From: a virus
IMG/VR virus record: IMGVR_UViG_3300049032_000033
Coordinates: 1 to 39,774 of that record
Length of the DNA stretch: 39,774 nucleotides
Direction: 5' to 3' (one strand)
The translations under genes were made by a program, and so were the position numbers. Numbering within the stretch: the stretch's first letter is position 1; each line of letters starts with the position of its first letter. The notes under the pieces were generated by a model that was not told the DNA's origin, made no database searches, and worked only from the letters and a program-made list of their open reading frames with translations. This document shows, piece by piece, positions 1,974 to 38,703 of the stretch.

Positions 1974-2020
1974 TGTTTTCGCGCCAGAACGGTATTAAAT
2001 CGAATGGATTAATTATACGC

Positions 2021-2069
2021 CGCACGACTCATAATCGTGAGGTCTCGGGTTCAAGTCCCGACTCCGCTA
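2021..2069 (+). other. attP core (3' half of tRNA-Met CAU)
   Basis: The sequence forms the 3' half of a tRNA. The anticodon stem CACGA/TCGTG encloses CTCATAA (anticodon CAT), then come AGGTC, a T arm (TCGGG, TTCAAGT, CCCGA) and the 3' acceptor strand CTCCGCT plus A. The 5' half of a tRNA is absent: the bases upstream do not form a D arm. Temperate phages often carry such a fragment to rebuild the tRNA gene they integrate into. The int-operon promoter, the integrase 1.6 kb away and flanking arm sites support attP. The exact crossover limits need the host sequence. Confidence 0.88.
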
Positions 2070-2922: not shown

Positions 2923-3152
2923 GCGGCATCCTTCCGATTGTTGAGAGTTGCCGCGCCGTATGCCGCTAAGAGCTGGTCGCGTTGCTTGTTGCGCTCCCAC
3001 CCGTCCACAAAGATGAACTGTGAGTGGTCGAGGCTCAGGTCCTGCAACTGGTCAAGCGTCCGCACGAATACCGCATGGTTCTGCTTGACTCCATTCCGGG
3101 CGCACCATCCGGCGTATGCCTGCCGGTGTTCGGCCATTGCGTAGAGCTTCAT
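2919..3152 (-). CDS. Hypothetical protein
   Basis: A 77-residue protein, MKLYAMAEHRQAYAGWCARN. It overlaps the HNH stop upstream by ATGA and the Ntn hydrolase start downstream. The VFVRTLDQLQDLSLDHSQF segment may form a small alpha/beta unit. Function unknown; the coupling places it in the same operon as the hydrolase. Confidence 0.75.
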   Translation of the reverse strand: MKLYAMAEHRQAYAGWCARNGVKQNHAVFVRTLDQLQDLSLDHSQFIFVDGWERNKQRDQLLAAYGAATLNNRKDAA

Positions 3153-3616
3153 GCGGCTTTCCTGTTCTGCTTGATTCGGTCCTGCGTGTTGCAGGTGAAG
3201 ACCTTGTTTCGCTTGACCCGGATGGCCTCGGCAGCCTCGTCGAGGTCGTGGAACATGCCGACGTAGATGGAGCGCCCGTTGTGCTTGAACTGGGCACACC
3301 ACATCTCATGCCGCTTGTTCCAGTGGACGCCCAGCACGCCGCTAGTGTTGTTCCGGTTGGGGCCGGCGCGGTTCTCGCCGTTCTGCTTATTCGTCACGGA
3401 ACGCAGGTGGCCCGGGTTTACGCACGCCCTGTTATGGCAGATATGGTCTATCTGACGGCCTGGCTTTATCATCTTGCCCGTGTGTAGCTCGAACGAATAC
3501 CGGTGGGCGTAGACGGCCTTGTAGCGCCCGTAGCCGATCTTGTCCACGTGGCCGGTCCAGATCCAGCACTCGCCGGACTTGTCCACATAGTTCCAGAACG
3601 TAGTACCCTTGGACAT
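3149..3616 (-). CDS. HNH homing-type endonuclease with AP2 domain
   Basis: A 155-residue protein. Residues 13-50 carry the GECWIWTGHV and YGRYKAVYAHRYSFE segments common in phage HNH_3 nucleases. The HNH core is IDHICHNRACVNPGHLRSVT (Asp-His, Cys pair, Asn, His), followed by NKQNGENR. The C-terminal part GVLGVHWNKRHEMWCAQF, then YVGMFHDLDEAAEAI, is an AP2 DNA-binding domain. Such proteins cut DNA and spread as homing elements. The gene has the structured leader shared with three other HNH genes here and its own promoter-like motif, and it leads the Ntn hydrolase operon. Confidence 0.9.
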   Translation of the reverse strand: MSKGTTFWNYVDKSGECWIWTGHVDKIGYGRYKAVYAHRYSFELHTGKMIKPGRQIDHICHNRACVNPGHLRSVTNKQNGENRAGPNRNNTSGVLGVHWNKRHEMWCAQFKHNGRSIYVGMFHDLDEAAEAIRVKRNKVFTCNTQDRIKQNRKAA

Positions 3617-3670
3617 ATCGACTCCTTAACAGTCGGTCACAGCCCCGGATGGTTACCGCCATCGCGGGGC
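3617..3670 (-). promoter_or_regulatory. Structured HNH leader RNA, copy 1
   Basis: Read on the minus strand. Hairpin 1 (3642-3670) pairs GCCCCG with CGGGGC and GATGG with CCATC around loop CGGTAA. Next comes TGAC. Hairpin 2 pairs CGACT with AGTCG, with the Shine-Dalgarno TTAAGG in its loop, and ATATG follows, ending in the start codon. The same order occurs upstream of the HNH genes starting at 22388, 25094 and 38008, with different but still complementary stems. Confidence 0.65.
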
Positions 3671-3684
3671 ACTTTAATTAGTCC

Positions 3685-3715
3685 ATTCTACCGCAAAAAC
3701 CCCTAGAATACGCGG
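3685..3715 (-). promoter_or_regulatory. Promoter with recurring motif, site B
   Basis: The minus strand has CCGCGTATTCTAG then GGGTTTTTGCGG (3691-3715), which directly abuts TAGAAT, a good -10 hexamer (3685-3690). Transcription would begin shortly before the HNH leader. The same motif-plus-hexamer arrangement lies upstream of the HNH gene that starts at 25094. Confidence 0.5.
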
Positions 3716-21650: not shown

Positions 21651-22388
21651 TCATGCCGCTGAAACTGTGCCGGGGGTGCCTATCTGCATCAGCAGTGGGT
21701 GTAGGGGCTCCAAGAGCATTAATGCTTGCTCCAGTTCAGCTATTCGCGCTTCGTAGGACTTGCGCGCCTTCATCTCTGCGATGTTCTCAACATGGGTTGC
21801 TGCCTGAAGGTGGGAAGGGTTAACGCACATCGTGTTTGCGCAAGTGTGATGTGCTTGCTGACTTCCGAGGGGCTTGCCATGTTTAGCTTCGAGGGCCAGT
21901 CGGTGAACCTGTAGCTGCTTACCTGCCCACCTCTGCGTTGGGTAGGAACTTGATGACTTTGACGGCTTATTCTTTCCGCCTTGCCACTGCCAGCACCCGT
22001 CTGCGGTCTCTGTGCTCTTAGCTCGTAGCTCGACGATAAAGTCAGCCCATCGTCCATCTTCGTAGGCGGCGCGGAGTTCGCTTCGTTGCGCTCTCCAAAG
22101 AGCGGCAAGCTCGTCTGCGGTTCGCGGCTTTGACTTCGGCGCTGCACTGGCTACCTGAGCTGCGATGCGCTTCTGCATTCCCTCGGTTGAGAGAGTTAGC
22201 GCCTGGTGGCATTCATCTGAACAGGTCCTTCGATCTTTACGATTGTGCGCAAAGGTTTCGGTACATACCGCGCAGACTAGAGCGTGCTGAACGTGGGCCC
22301 GGTACCAGTTTGAGTAGTGCGTTGTGCACATGCCGCGGGACTGTACTTTGCGCTGGCAATCTACTTCTTTACATGGGACAGTTGTCAT
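21651..22388 (-). CDS. HNH endonuclease with N-terminal zinc fingers
   Basis: A 245-residue protein. The N-terminus has the finger CKEVDCQRKVQSRGMCTTHY and a second Cys group (CAVC...CSDEC). The middle is helical. The nuclease part has GCWQWQG, QVHRLALEAKHG and AHHTCANTMCVNPSHLQ (HNH core), then a C-terminal coiled coil. It separates the packaging-linked HNH gene (22458) from the terminase genes, so it looks inserted. Start ATG 22388 follows the shared leader; an in-frame ATG at 22415 lies inside the leader and would bypass it. Confidence 0.85.
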   Translation of the reverse strand: MTTVPCKEVDCQRKVQSRGMCTTHYSNWYRAHVQHALVCAVCTETFAHNRKDRRTCSDECHQALTLSTEGMQKRIAAQVASAAPKSKPRTADELAALWRAQRSELRAAYEDGRWADFIVELRAKSTETADGCWQWQGGKNKPSKSSSSYPTQRWAGKQLQVHRLALEAKHGKPLGSQQAHHTCANTMCVNPSHLQAATHVENIAEMKARKSYEARIAELEQALMLLEPLHPLLMQIGTPGTVSAA

Positions 22389-22445
22389 ATCGAACTCCTC
22401 TGAAAGTTCGGTCATGGCCCCGATCTGTTAGCGCAGATGCGGGGC
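22389..22445 (-). promoter_or_regulatory. Structured HNH leader RNA, copy 3
   Basis: Minus strand. Hairpin 1 (22417-22445) pairs GCCCC(G) with CGGGGC and ATCTG with CAGAT around loop CGCTAA. TGAC follows after CA. Hairpin 2 pairs CGAACT with AGTTCG, with the Shine-Dalgarno AGAGG in its loop, directly before ATATG. Compared with copy 1 both stems have changed on both strands and still pair. Confidence 0.65.
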
Positions 22446-22457
22446 TTCTCTATTTGG

Positions 22458-22754
22458 TTACCAGTTACGGGAAGTCTTGATTGGCTTTAGTGCGAGTATC
22501 TTGGGCGCTGACCGATTGCCCTTGGATTGGTTGCATTTGCGGCAGCAGACGCGGACATTGTCGTGTGTGTCGGTCCCGCCGAGGCTGTGAGGAATAACGT
22601 GGTCCACTTCGGCACTTGCTGGCGTCTGTCCGACGTCGTAGTCGAGTAGCACGTCACAGTCGGGGCAGTTTGTTAGTCCGCCACGCTTAGCACGGTAGAG
22701 AGCTTGACCGCGCAATCTCTTCCAGACTGTTGTGCCTGTGCGTGAGGTTGCCAT
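22458..22754 (-). CDS. HNH endonuclease, packaging-associated
   Basis: A 98-residue protein with CPDC and CCRKC zinc knuckles around EVDHVIPHSLGGTDTHDNVR, the canonical HNH core (Asp-His, Asn, His-equivalent). Small HNH proteins next to terminase genes are needed for cos cleavage in several siphoviruses (HK97 gp74 type). It lacks the leader and the fingers of the other four HNH genes here, which separates it from the homing-type group. Confidence 0.87.
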   Translation of the reverse strand: MATSRTGTTVWKRLRGQALYRAKRGGLTNCPDCDVLLDYDVGQTPASAEVDHVIPHSLGGTDTHDNVRVCCRKCNQSKGNRSAPKILALKPIKTSRNW

Positions 22755-23784: not shown

Positions 23785-24393
23785 TTAACTCGATTGTGTT
23801 AACTCTTTCGTTGGCGTGTCGAGAGCGGCAATGAGGTTATGCATCTCCTCGTCCTCCCAGCGCGCTTGGCAGTAATCGCAGGCAACCCACATACTGCCTG
23901 CTGTTGCGTGACCCGTTAGTGTCGGCTTGCGGATGTTCTCGCCTTCCTCCACCACCAGGTAGTAGGCGTATCCGCATTGAGGGCATGGTCCGCTAATGGT
24001 AAGTGGTTTCGGGGGACGGAAGTAGGCTTCGATGTCACGGACCCAGCCGGTGACGTACTTCTCGGCTTCGGCTGCCTTGTCTGGGCTTGCGGATGCGATT
24101 CGAGTCCATGCCTGGATCTTCCCTTCGAGCGTTGCCCGTTCGCCGCCGCTGTGGGTATTCCAATAAAAGCGCGTGCTAACAGCTTCGATACGGAGGTACA
24201 GGTCATAGGCATTAAGACTGATCGGCGCCGGAGTTCCACCGCCTCCTGTGCGTTGTCCACTAAGCCCCTCGAATGCTTCCCTGAGTTGGTCAAGCAGTGA
24301 CGCGGCTTGGTGGTACGTCTTGCCATCGTCGCGCTGCACGGCACCAGCGTGAGGTCTGGTAAGACGGTGGACCGCGTCAAACAGTGCACTCAT
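23785..24393 (-). CDS. Zinc-ribbon hypothetical protein
   Basis: A 202-residue protein. The N-terminal two thirds are helical (MSALFDAVHRLTRPHAGAVQ, then YHQAASLLDQLREAFEGL). The C-terminus carries CPQCGYAYY and WVACDYCQARWEDEE, a four-cysteine zinc ribbon. Proteins of this build recur at the end of actinophage early operons; no function is established that I can name. It is coupled to the HNH gene upstream by ATGA. Confidence 0.75.
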   Translation of the reverse strand: MSALFDAVHRLTRPHAGAVQRDDGKTYHQAASLLDQLREAFEGLSGQRTGGGGTPAPISLNAYDLYLRIEAVSTRFYWNTHSGGERATLEGKIQAWTRIASASPDKAAEAEKYVTGWVRDIEAYFRPPKPLTISGPCPQCGYAYYLVVEEGENIRKPTLTGHATAGSMWVACDYCQARWEDEEMHNLIAALDTPTKELTQSS

Positions 24394-25094
24394 GAGTTCC
24401 GCCTGTCTAGTTCGTTGTGCGTAAAGAGTTCGAGACGTTTTGCGGTTGCCGCAGCATCTGCGGCCTCGGCGGTTTCGTGGTATCCGAGGAAGTAGTTCCT
24501 GCCGTGGTGCACCACGTAGGCGTGCCATTTTCCTATGTCTTTGCGATAGTGCACGCCGCGGATTCCGGAACCGCTTGCAATCGACGCCCCGGCGCGGTTC
24601 TCCATGTTCTGCTTGCGGGTTGTTAGCCGGAGGTGGTCAGGGCGGACGCATCCACGGTTCAGGCAACGGTGGTCAACTTCGGCGCCTTCCGGGATTTCTC
24701 CAATGAAGGCTTGAAACGCGAATCGGTGGGCGCTTGTTGCGGGGGAAGTAGCGTTGAATACGCCGTACCCCTTCTTGCTCTTGTAGCCAGTCCATTCCCA
24801 GCAGTCGCCGGACTTGTCCACGTAAATCTCGAACCGATCTTTGACCGGCATTCCGAGGGTCCTTGACGGACGTAACTCTGTACCTGCTCGGCGCTGTGCA
24901 TAGTGCGCTGCGCACAACCCGCCAGCCAGGTGCTTCTTGCCGCAATCCTCGAATTCGCAGGTTAGGCGCGTGGGAGTTCGCGGTGTTGTCTTAAACTCTC
25001 CACGCAACCTCGCGCTGTTGTAGTGGACGGTGCAGAAGCCTCGTGCGGTGGGCTTCTTATCACAACTGTCAACTGAACAAATTTTGGGTACCAT
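24390..25094 (-). CDS. HNH homing-type endonuclease with zinc fingers and AP2 domain
   Basis: A 234-residue protein. Two tandem fingers come first: CSVDSCDKKPTARGFCTVHY and CEFEDCGKKHLAGGLCAAHY. Then follow the EIYVDKSGDCWEWTGYKSKK segment, the HNH core VDHRCLNRGCVRPDHLRL, RKQNMENR, and a C-terminal AP2 domain (GIRGVHYRKDIGKWHAYVVH). It combines the fingers of the 38008 and 21651 proteins with the nuclease/AP2 half of the 3149 protein, so the four look like shuffled modules. ATG 25094 follows the shared leader; the long upstream extension is not coding. Confidence 0.88.
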   Translation of the reverse strand: MVPKICSVDSCDKKPTARGFCTVHYNSARLRGEFKTTPRTPTRLTCEFEDCGKKHLAGGLCAAHYAQRRAGTELRPSRTLGMPVKDRFEIYVDKSGDCWEWTGYKSKKGYGVFNATSPATSAHRFAFQAFIGEIPEGAEVDHRCLNRGCVRPDHLRLTTRKQNMENRAGASIASGSGIRGVHYRKDIGKWHAYVVHHGRNYFLGYHETAEAADAAATAKRLELFTHNELDRRNS

Positions 25095-25167
25095 GTCTGG
25101 TAGCCCCTTCCTGCTAGTACCAGAAAACGGGTCAGGCTCCAGGCGGTGTTGACGCACCTCTGGGGCC
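25095..25167 (-). promoter_or_regulatory. Structured HNH leader RNA, copy 4 (divergent)
   Basis: Minus strand. Hairpin 1 (25135-25167) pairs GGC-CCAG with CTGG-GCC and GGTG with CACC around loop CGTCAA. TGAC follows directly. Hairpin 2 pairs TCTGG with CCAGA (with TAGC/GCTA inside), placing the Shine-Dalgarno AGGAAGGG in the loop just before the start codon. The sequence differs almost everywhere from copies 1-3, but the order of elements is the same. Confidence 0.55.
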
Positions 25168-25173
25168 GTTCTT

Positions 25174-28795: not shown

Positions 28796-29608
28796 TCATG
28801 CCCCTAGTTCTAGTTGGCCGGACATTTCGGCGCGGGTTTCTTGGAGTAGGTCATATCCGGCCTGCAAGCGGGTTTGAGAGCCTGTGGGGCGCTGCTGCTG
28901 GCCTCTGGTAGGCAATGGGCCGTCTTCCCAGCACTTGCCGTTTAGCCAGGTGGCAGGGAGCTTGGTGAACTGGTCTTCCCTGTTTGGGTCATCCCTATAC
29001 CGGATGGCACCTTCGACGAGTTCTTCAGCCGTGGCTATCTTCCGGGCCTTTGCGTATGCCTTCTCTGCCACGCCTTTGGATTCTTTGCGTGGGTATTCGA
29101 GATACCAGTCGAGGAACTCGTCAGCGTTCGGCTTTGCCGGACTAGAAGAACTGTTCCCCTGTTCCACTGTTCCTCTGTTCCTCTGTTCCCCTGTTACGGG
29201 CGCGAGGGTTTCGGGAGGGCTCGCGACACTCTCGCGAATTTCGGACTCTTTATAGTCCAAAGTCCCGTCAGGACGCGGATTTCTACCTTTACCGGGCTTG
29301 TCTATTCGCTGTATGGACTCCCAGAAGGAAATGTAGATGAGAGGGTCTCCGTTGGCCTCGTATCGGTGCACTAAACCGGCTTGGTGTAGCTCGGAAATGG
29401 CTTCGGACACCCTCGCGACGGTCTCGCGAGTGTTCGCGAACATGTCGCGAGGAAATACGTCGGTGACGATTAGTTCAATGTCGTCCACTCCGACGCCGTT
29501 GTCATCGACGTAGGACTCCAGGCCCTTGAGTACTAGGCGGGCATCCCATGAGACGGAGCTGATGCGGCGGGACTTCCAGAACTCCGGCTTAGTTCCACGT
29601 ATCCTCAT
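28796..29608 (-). CDS. Replication initiator/replisome organiser
   Basis: A 270-residue protein from ATG 29608. Residues 1-105 (RGTKPEFWKSRRISSVSWDA, then RLVLKGLESYVDDNGVG and SEAISELHQAGLVHRY) form a winged-helix domain as in phage replisome organisers. A repetitive linker follows (about 140-160), then a C-terminal helical domain (FLDWYLEYPRKESKGVAEKA). It should bind iterons and recruit the helicase through the loader encoded next. The iterons lie inside this gene, in the linker and winged-helix coding parts. GTG 29644 in the same frame is possible but lacks a usable SD. Confidence 0.8.
   Translation of the reverse strand: MRIRGTKPEFWKSRRISSVSWDARLVLKGLESYVDDNGVGVDDIELIVTDVFPRDMFANTRETVARVSEAISELHQAGLVHRYEANGDPLIYISFWESIQRIDKPGKGRNPRPDGTLDYKESEIRESVASPPETLAPVTGEQRNRGTVEQGNSSSSPAKPNADEFLDWYLEYPRKESKGVAEKAYAKARKIATAEELVEGAIRYRDDPNREDQFTKLPATWLNGKCWEDGPLPTRGQQQRPTGSQTRLQAGYDLLQETRAEMSGQLELGA
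29151..29198 (+). repeat. Six tandem 8-bp repeats (candidate iterons)
   Basis: CTGTTCC plus one base is repeated from 29151 (C, A, T, T, C endings), with a sixth partial unit CTGTTACG at 29191. It lies in the linker-coding part of the initiator gene, where lambda-type phages place origin iterons. Confidence 0.7.
29221..29450. repeat. Helically phased TCGCGA sites
   Basis: TCGCGA occurs at 29221 and 29232, and again at 29413, 29424, 29434 and 29445, with spacings of 11, 11, 10 and 11 bases inside the groups. About one helical turn between palindromic sites suggests a protein-binding array inside the initiator gene. Confidence 0.6.
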
Positions 29609-29634
29609 TCGGTGCCGCCGTTGGGTAGAATCAT
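29605..29634 (-). CDS. Nine-codon leader peptide of the initiator gene
   Basis: ATG 29634 has the Shine-Dalgarno AAGGAG nine bases upstream and encodes MILPNGGTE. Its TGA overlaps the initiator ATG (ATGA). The initiator itself has no SD, so its translation probably depends on reading this peptide. Confidence 0.55.
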   Translation of the reverse strand: MILPNGGTE

Positions 29635-29720
29635 TTGTAGCCACTCCTTATTAGTGGTTTAGACCCCGGATTGTGTTAGCAGCACGTCCGGGGTCGTTTT
29701 ATTCGAGCCGTACCACTAAT
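29635..29720 (-). promoter_or_regulatory. Structured leader of the initiator gene
   Basis: On the minus strand ATTAGTGGT (29712-29720) can pair with ACCACTAAT (29650-29658), enclosing a hairpin GACCCCGGA/TCCGGGGTC (29662-29695). The same CCACT can instead pair with AGTGG just downstream, placing the SD AAGG in a hairpin loop. On the plus strand the GACCCCGGA hairpin is followed by GTTTTATT and could also act as a terminator. Confidence 0.55.
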
Positions 29721-37490: not shown

Positions 37491-37832
37491 ATGCCTAATT
37501 CACCAGAAACCAGTCAAGTAACGCGCTGGTACGACTACATCACCCGAGTTACCGAAGGAATGACAGCGCGTGAAGTGGCAGCCCGCGCAGGATTCGACGA
37601 GTCAGCAATGACCCGATGGAAAAAGGGAATGAACGCGGACCCGAAATTCGTTGTCCAGTTCGCCCGCGCATTCCACCAGAACGTTCTCTTGGCCCTCGCG
37701 GAAGCGGAACTCATTACCGACGACGAGGCCAACCTCCACGAGGTGCGGATCGGTGTTGAGGATATGACGACACACCAACTCCTGGAAGAGCTTGCCCAGC
37801 GCATCGACAACGGCGGCGGCAGACACCCCTAG
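37491..37832 (+). CDS. Immunity repressor
   Basis: A 113-residue protein. WYDYITRVTEGMTAREVAAR, then AGFDESAMTRWKKGMNADPK and FVVQFARAFHQNVLLALAEA, form an XRE-type helix-turn-helix with its support helices. The C-terminal IGVEDMTTHQLLEELAQRI helix may mediate dimers. There is no LexA-like cleavage domain, so induction must be by another route. It is on the strand opposite to the lytic genes with its own promoter and a strong terminator, as expected for the lysogeny-maintenance repressor. Confidence 0.87.
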   Translation: MPNSPETSQVTRWYDYITRVTEGMTAREVAARAGFDESAMTRWKKGMNADPKFVVQFARAFHQNVLLALAEAELITDDEANLHEVRIGVEDMTTHQLLEELAQRIDNGGGRHP

Positions 37833-37842
37833 AACCAAAAAA

Positions 37843-37886
37843 CAAGAGAGCCTCGTCGCCAACTTTCTGGCGACGAGGCTCTCTTG
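37843..37886 (+). terminator. Terminator of the repressor gene
   Basis: CAAGAGAGCCTCGTCGCCA pairs along 19 bases with its complement, loop ACTTTC. The T-run after it is poor (TTGCATTC), but such a long perfect hairpin directly after the repressor stop should end the transcript or protect it. Confidence 0.75.
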
Positions 37887-37906
37887 CATTCGCCGGATTG
37901 TGGCGA

Positions 37907-37923: not shown

Positions 37924-37950
37924 GAGTAACAAGCAGTAAGGCAACAAAGT

Positions 37951-38007
37951 GCCCCGCGATGGCTGGAACCACCCGGGGCTGTGACCGACACATAAGGGAG
38001 TGCCGAT
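37951..38007 (+). promoter_or_regulatory. Structured HNH leader RNA, copy 2
   Basis: Hairpin 1 (37951-37979) pairs GCCCCG with CGGGGC and GATGG with CCACC (one mismatch) around loop CTGGAA. TG and TGAC follow, then hairpin 2 pairs CGACAC with GTGCCG (one mismatch), with the Shine-Dalgarno AAGGGA in its loop, and ATATG. It is nearly the same sequence as copy 1 for about 50 bases, starting at AAAGTG. Confidence 0.65.
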
Positions 38008-38703
38008 ATGGCCAAGTCTACATGCAGCACCGATAGCTGCCACCGAGCGATCTACTTCCGCGAGAAATGCTACGTGCACTACGTCCGCGTAGGGCCGAAG
38101 CTCCGCGGCACCTGCAAGATTGACGGGTGCGACGCAATAACCACCGCCAAGGGTTTATGCGATAGGCACTACACGCGCCTCCGGCGACACGGCGATCCAA
38201 CATTCACCGAACGCACACCACAGGACGCAAGCCTTGCTGAGCGCCTGGAGTTCGGCGGTTGGACCGAAGTGGTACGCCGTCCGGATCTCGGCCCCTGCTG
38301 GGAATGGAATGGGGCGCGTCATCCAAAGACCGGATACGGGTACGTGAGCGTTGGCGATAGTAAGACCAAGCATGCCAGTCGGGTAGCGTACTTGGCGTGG
38401 GTCGGGCCGATTGGAGACGACAAGTTCGCATGCCACCGTTGCGACAACCCGCCATGCATCAACCCCGCCCACCTTTTCGCCGGCACCCCCAAAGAGAACT
38501 CGCAGGACGCCGCCGCTAAAGACCGTAGCGCATACGGTGAACGGCAGGGAGGTCACAAGCTGACCGAGGCAGAAGTCCGCGCCATTAGGGCGGACTATGC
38601 AACCGGCAAATTCAAGCAGATAGAGCTTTCCCGCAAATACAAAACATCGCCAATGAATGTGAGTCTCATCGTTCGCGGGAAAGCGTGGGTTAGGGCTGCC
38701 TAG
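38008..38703 (+). CDS. HNH endonuclease with zinc fingers and C-terminal HTH
   Basis: A 231-residue protein. Two N-terminal fingers, [20 protein letters not shown] and [20 protein letters not shown], precede [20 protein letters not shown] and the HNH core [20 protein letters not shown] with [10 protein letters not shown]. The C-terminus, [20 protein letters not shown] and [20 protein letters not shown], is a helix-turn-helix of the kind found on homing endonucleases. It faces the integrase: the stop codons overlap by four bases. Confidence 0.88.

Follow-up and report, generated by a model that had tools for sequence, protein, structure and literature searches.

The window analyzed here, an entire virus record of 39,774 bases, carries a structured leader upstream of HNH endonuclease genes that, judged from its sequence, is probably the complement of a cis-encoded antisense RNA of ~62 nt that would extend over the whole 5′ UTR of its target gene and probably block translation. 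Homologous leaders precede more than 100 genes in Arthrobacter, Brevibacterium, and Gordonia phages and in IMG/VR contigs. Little is known about the control of free-standing homing endonucleases in phages outside the T4 group; if the antisense reading is true, many actinophage selfish genes are controlled by a single small RNA that lacks annotation and can be seen in published genomes, and it can be tested for in Arthrobacter phages grown in teaching laboratories.

Hairpin anatomy and covariation of the leaders

Four leaders, at positions 3617–3670 (−), 22389–22445 (−), 25095–25167 (−), and 37951–38007 (+), were described in the first-pass annotation as sharing one order, namely hairpin 1, a TGAC linker, hairpin 2 with the Shine–Dalgarno sequence in its loop, and the start codon, and both this order and the listed stems can be read directly in the sequence. 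The description of the hairpins was incomplete: hairpin 1 is composed of an outer stem, P1 (GCCCCG/CGGGGC type and variants), which had been left out, a bulged C, an inner stem, P2, and a six-base loop, and hairpin 2 is longer on the antisense strand than first stated (AUCGACU...AGUCGGU and relatives, mostly 7–9 pairs). In all copies, the Shine–Dalgarno sequence lies inside hairpin 2, and the structure thus does sit over the ribosome-binding site, as had been proposed.

The paired changes on both sides of the stems had been taken as the mark of a selected RNA structure, and this interpretation holds in larger sets of leaders. Among 35 leaders read on the gene strand, hairpin 1 shows both-side changes at 7 of its 11 pairs, and its covariation score is 0.43, compared with 0.10 after shuffling (0 of 500 shuffles equal the observed value) and with at most 0.07 for slid registers. 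The antisense reading of 48 leaders gives 11 covarying pairs; the corresponding score is 0.47 versus 0.14 shuffled (0 of 500), and hairpin 1 is 99.6% paired. When arms are swapped among leaders, the observed pairing of P2 is reached in 0 of 20,000 shuffles, and that of hairpin 2 is unreached in 500 to 2,000 shuffles. Kinship among leaders can inflate covariation counts of this kind, for which the strand test described below (A·C versus G·U) was used as support.

Hairpin 2 closes with an outermost pair between the linker and the base that precedes the start codon. This pair itself covaries (26 A-T and 8 G-C), with the linker TGAC pairing with GAT and the linker TGGC pairing with GAC, AAC, TAC, or CAC. 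It is this pair that accounts for the conservation of the linker and of the bases preceding the start codon. The possibility that the linker contains a conserved upstream start codon (NTGACC) was rejected by eye, as the linkers TGGC, TGGT, and GGCGAACC break that motif; a pseudoknot between loop and linker was likewise rejected by eye, as the loop bases vary independently of the linker. A search of the five leader sites against Rfam 15, on both strands, returned no match at the gathering score or at E up to 5, and the structure is therefore new to Rfam.

The folding strand and the predicted antisense transcript

The imperfect pairs of the two hairpins distinguish the strands. On the gene strand, hairpin 1 (P1/P2) contains 19 A·C against 2 G·U pairs in 94 leaders, among the matches listed, and both G·U pairs trace to one doubtful leader; hairpin 2 contains 29 A·C against 1 G·U pair in 21 variants, under a scoring that treats A·C and G·U equally. 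Because an A·C mismatch on the gene strand is a G·U wobble on the antisense strand, the conserved fold, and with it the selected secondary structure, appears to belong to the strand opposite the target gene. A mismatch count of this kind reads the functional strand of a structured element from sequence alone. Several copies of hairpin 2 have two or three mismatches on the gene strand and zero on the antisense strand, and for both hairpins the mean folding energy is lower on the antisense strand. Most of the pairing is nevertheless retained on the gene strand, and some additional role of the hairpins in the mRNA is possible.

The strand that folds also carries a predicted −10 box. After a conserved CGAT, coding positions 8, 12, 13, and 14 show base-level conservation across many unrelated proteins, and positions 8–13 read ANNNTA, which gives TANNNT on the antisense strand, inside codons 3–5. 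An antisense TANNNT starting at coding position 7 or 8 is present in 88 of 94 leaders, compared with 8 occurrences in about 2,726 other positions (both among the matches listed), and the set gathered through hairpin 1 has the antisense −10 box in 38 of 48 leaders. Of 10 leaders with a displaced start codon, 8 have the box at an unchanged distance from the hairpin, and the conservation of the box is therefore not a coding effect. No antisense −35 box was seen in the leaders; the usual promoter of M. tuberculosis is TANNNT without a −35 box and with a purine start (PMC3898074). The predicted start of the antisense RNA is a purine opposite the base preceding the start codon. By these features, the antisense RNA has a predicted promoter of its own on the opposite strand, represented by the −10 box only. 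A canonical promoter scanner applied to three copies reported no promoter.

At its 3′ end, the predicted antisense RNA has a GC-rich hairpin and then a U/C-rich tail: in the 8 nt that come after hairpin 1, the number of U averages 4.3 on the antisense strand versus 1.2 on the other strand, with U runs mostly of 2–3 bases. In three copies, a canonical terminator scanner did not report this terminator and gave only an overlapping alternative stem, at one copy.

From the conservation, the covariation, the folding strand, the fixed position of the −10 box, and the association with gene starts, all of which are observed directly, we infer that the antisense RNA is made and that it represses its target. 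Host RNA polymerase would start transcription from the TANNNT within target codons 3–5, on the opposite strand, and the RNA would begin at the purine just ahead of the target start codon. It would fold into a 5′ hairpin of 7–9 bp, with a loop that begins with CCU and is complementary to the Shine–Dalgarno sequence, followed by a short GUCA-type linker and then the bulged GC-rich hairpin, with the U/C-rich tail terminating transcription. Such an RNA would be complementary to the entire 5′ UTR, and the mRNA promoter, where visible, would lie just past its terminator. A loop–loop contact, in which the antisense CCU meets the Shine–Dalgarno loop of the mRNA, would come first; full antisense–mRNA pairing would come next and block ribosome binding, and the nuclease or replication initiator would thereby be held low in proportion to gene copy number. 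Among the distinct 7-nt loops, 25 of 36 contain YUNR, the motif reported for loop–loop antisense pairing (PMC4485353).

The first-pass annotation had instead proposed a ribosome-binding site-hiding hairpin in the gene's own mRNA, of the type found at T4 homing endonuclease genes such as I-TevI. In the fuller form of this explanation, hairpin 1 would shield the 5′ end of the mRNA and hairpin 2 would hide or present the Shine–Dalgarno sequence, whose location within hairpin 2 agrees with such a role, as do the gene-strand −10 boxes of about half the leaders, which lie ~14 nt upstream of hairpin 1 and would render hairpin 1 nearly 5′-terminal. The T4 genes do have RNA structure at the ribosome-binding site (PMC2988022); there, however, it is the mRNA that folds into the hairpin, and transcription from late promoters avoids this hairpin (PMC2988022), whereas the actinophage fold appears to have been selected on the opposite strand. 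On the gene strand, recurrent A·C mismatches interrupt both hairpins, with almost no G·U, such that a fold conserved on the mRNA strand is not what is found, and the copies of hairpin 2 that are mismatched two or three times on the mRNA strand are never mismatched on the antisense strand, which pairs throughout and has the fixed-distance −10 box and the terminator-like tail. The gene-strand −10 boxes found (−10 boxes alone were considered) all lie upstream of both hairpins, and none lies inside a hairpin, where it could give hairpin-free late transcripts. As the TANNNT in codons 3–5 would also be left unexplained, we regard action of the structure in the mRNA as unlikely.

Less likely again is that the antisense transcript acts by transcription itself, as polymerases converge, or in trans, as a small RNA directed at the mRNAs of other genes, and not by pairing to the mRNA of its own gene. 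The predicted promoters do face each other, about 80 bp apart, and the RNA parts conserved between copies would permit cross-pairing, but transcription alone needs neither two covarying hairpins nor a terminator, and every annotated match examined is at a gene start, with none alone. A reading of the inverted repeats as sites in double-stranded DNA (operator, nuclease cutting site, or recombination site) and not as RNA is very improbable: very similar leaders do precede different proteins, and the ESAS repeats of Cluster K mycobacteriophages have been interpreted as DNA sites (PMC3203893), but nothing in a double-stranded site would favor A·C rather than G·U on a given strand, and the stem bases change freely with pairing retained.

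Copies in the window and their target genes

The first predicted antisense RNA of the window (3617–3678, +; 84.9 bits and E = 1.8e-16 with a covariance model that has this copy in its training set) lies opposite the 5′ UTR of an HNH endonuclease gene with an AP2-like end (3149–3616, −; Pfam HNH_3, 5e-13). Its predicted fold (−28.3 kcal/mol) comprises a 5′ hairpin (3617–3637), a terminator-like hairpin (3642–3670), and a U/C-rich tail (3671–3678). The predicted −10 box, TACCCT (3604–3609, +), is within codons 3–5 of the HNH gene, where the 88 of 94 listed homologues have TANNNT, and a possible −10 box for the gene's own promoter, TAGAAT (3685–3690, −), is located at a distance at which TANNNT is enriched in homologues.

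The second predicted antisense RNA (22389–22453, +; 60.4 bits, E = 2.8e-11, in the training set) would target the HNH endonuclease gene at 21651–22388 (−; Pfam HNH_3, 3e-6), and its −10 sequence, GACAGT (22377–22382, +), is one base short of TANNNT. Antisense RNA 4 (37943–38007, −; 61.1 bits, E = 2e-11, in the training set) is predicted opposite the 5′ UTR of the HNH endonuclease gene at 38008–38703 (+; Pfam HNH_3, 6e-6), with the −10 box TAGACT (38015–38020, −). The leader at 37951–38007 has one A·C mismatch per hairpin, and the predicted fold of this RNA is −32.3 kcal/mol on the antisense strand versus −20.0 kcal/mol on the gene strand. A divergent copy, possibly decayed (25095–25173, +; 15.3 bits, E = 0.095), precedes the HNH endonuclease gene at 24390–25094 (−; Pfam HNH_3, 4e-16) and has no antisense −10 box at the expected place. 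Two of the five copies in the window, those at 22.4 and 25.1 kb, thus lack a perfect −10 box; those at 3.6, 29.6, and 38.0 kb have TANNNT.

The four leaders first described were not the complete set, as the covariance model finds a fifth copy, overlooked in the first-pass annotation and outside the training set (29639–29701, +; 25.5 bits, E = 6.6e-4), with a predicted fold of −31.3 kcal/mol and the −10 box TAGAAT (29626–29631, +). This predicted antisense RNA is opposite the leader not of an HNH gene but of a replication initiation protein gene (28796–29608, −; phrog_2149, E = 1.7e-70). After the ribosome-binding site of the fifth copy, there is a possible 9-codon leader frame (ATG ATT CTA ... 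GAA TGA; 29605–29634, −), the end of which overlaps the ATG of the replication gene and which, by its position, may be translationally coupled to the start of that gene. The arrangement of copy and 9-codon frame before the replication-initiation gene (28796–29701, −) recalls plasmid copy-number control. In plasmid R1, there is translational coupling with a leader peptide at the replication gene, and CopA, its counter-transcript, is likewise a small antisense RNA opposite a replication-initiation leader. If the antisense reading is true, phage replication initiation is tied to antisense control of the plasmid type.

The packaging-type HNH gene at 22458–22754, from which the element had been reported missing, indeed gave no match in the covariance model search of the window. 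Between the gene at 37491–37832 and the fourth leader, a long near-perfect inverted repeat, GAGAGCCTCGTCGCCA...TGGCGACGAGGCTCTC (37838–37888), is terminator-like; the mir-9447 match of Rfam to these positions is under its threshold. A tRNA-like sequence at 1998–2069 (+) scores 28 bits against an Rfam threshold of 29 and was unreported by ARAGORN.

Distribution among viruses and relation to known systems

Distant blastn matches to single leaders were found in Arthrobacter phages, Brevibacterium phage Rousseau, and Gordonia phages, mostly at annotated HNH endonuclease genes. A pattern that fixes hairpin 2 only, TGACCGACTN{4,9}GGAGTCGAT, searched in viral contigs, gave at least 94 leaders after removal of redundancy, in which hairpin 1 is present upstream though it was unasked for; the listed matches are mostly true. 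The hairpin-1 pattern matched 20 places in a collection of bacterial and archaeal genomes, of which 1 is true, on a Propionibacteriaceae contig, and with one true member in that collection the element is essentially viral. The window pattern GGGGCNNTGACCGA with 3 mismatches was uninformative (60 found versus 59.6 expected), and matches to a TTGGC-linker pattern in viral contigs were mostly due to chance. Records searched hold one to four copies each, compared with five in the window.

In 11 annotated phages, the covariance model gave 16 matches with E < 1e-4, and those that were set against the annotation are each placed directly before the start of a gene that is HNH, GIY-YIG, or unannotated, with none free-standing. 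The leader is common to HNH genes of actinophages; its restriction to them is ruled out by the other gene families downstream. Pfam assigns the 118 downstream proteins, in overlapping counts, to HNH_3 (38), HNH (28), HNH_5 (23), T5orf172 (10), MUG113 (9), endonuclease VII (4), and NUMOD4 (2), with single Bro-N, DNA methylase, and primase/polymerase matches, and PHROGs adds the endonuclease family phrog_16945, an antirepressor, and a DNA primase. GIY-YIG, endonuclease VII, primase, replication-initiation, antirepressor, and methyltransferase genes thus have the leader as well. Two leaders, L004 and L006, are near-identical yet have different proteins downstream, and leader and gene are therefore exchangeable.

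Tentatively, these leaders may represent a mobile antisense-RNA control module of actinophages, a single design carried by or exchanged among selfish nucleases of unrelated kinds (HNH, GIY-YIG, endonuclease VII, and one further endonuclease family) and captured also by replication and lysis–lysogeny genes. The module would serve as a copy-number sensor and would possibly act in trans between copies and co-infecting phages through its conserved parts. Four contigs (L033, L055, L074, and L087) have a variant with the same type of hairpin 1 followed by AGTC...GGAAAGGACTGACCTGCAATG; this variant may have branched off from the family and diverged, and L055 scores 25 bits with the covariance model. 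Outside the actinobacteria, an unannotated stretch of Microcystis phage MinS1 (MZ923504.1, 40408–40450) is 91% identical over 43 bases to the hairpin-1 part of leader L169.

In working principle, the predicted RNA resembles the RNA-OUT/RNA-IN system of IS10, in which a short antisense RNA of a selfish element is directed against the translation start of the gene for a DNA-cutting enzyme, blocks ribosome binding, and exerts control that rises with copy number (PMC5006887). RNA-OUT is a single long 69-nt stem-loop with 35 nt paired (PMC5006887), whereas the actinophage RNA would have two hairpins, span the whole 5′ UTR, and be common to unrelated enzymes in actinobacterial phages. Antisense control of a selfish enzyme is thus already known; what would be new here is the RNA design, the hosts, and the set of unrelated targets.

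RNAII of pMV158 is also a small antisense RNA that ends in a terminator hairpin and lies opposite a replication-initiation leader (PMC4485353), as one copy in the window is predicted to do. It consists of a single hairpin and a 17-nt tail (PMC4485353), whereas the actinophage RNA would have a 5′ hairpin instead of the tail and has mostly nucleases as its targets. In cyanophage S-PM2, the antisense RNA CfrI likewise lies opposite the gene for a homing endonuclease, and it was the only case of antisense RNA with homing endonucleases that we found in the open-access papers searched; unlike the actinophage RNA, it is about 225 nt long, joins psbA and the endonuclease gene, and forms no family at translation starts (PMC2984593).

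Closest in anatomy are the SAS/ESAS elements of Cluster K mycobacteriophages, in which an inverted repeat and then a conserved Shine–Dalgarno sequence precede selected actinophage gene starts (PMC3203893); ESAS contains a promoter in the gene direction (PMC11373665). The 13-bp SAS motif, GGGATAGGAGCCC, is absent from the leaders, no SAS of phage Anaya has an antisense −10 box where one would be expected, and none of the Anaya sites is found by the covariance model; membership in SAS/ESAS is rejected on these grounds. The published SAS motifs, GGGATAGGAGCCC (PMC3203893) and GGGAAAGGACCCC (PMC7302621), have the potential to form a GGG...CCC mini-hairpin whose loop contains the Shine–Dalgarno sequence, and such a hairpin might account for the conserved SAS flanks that the authors left unexplained.
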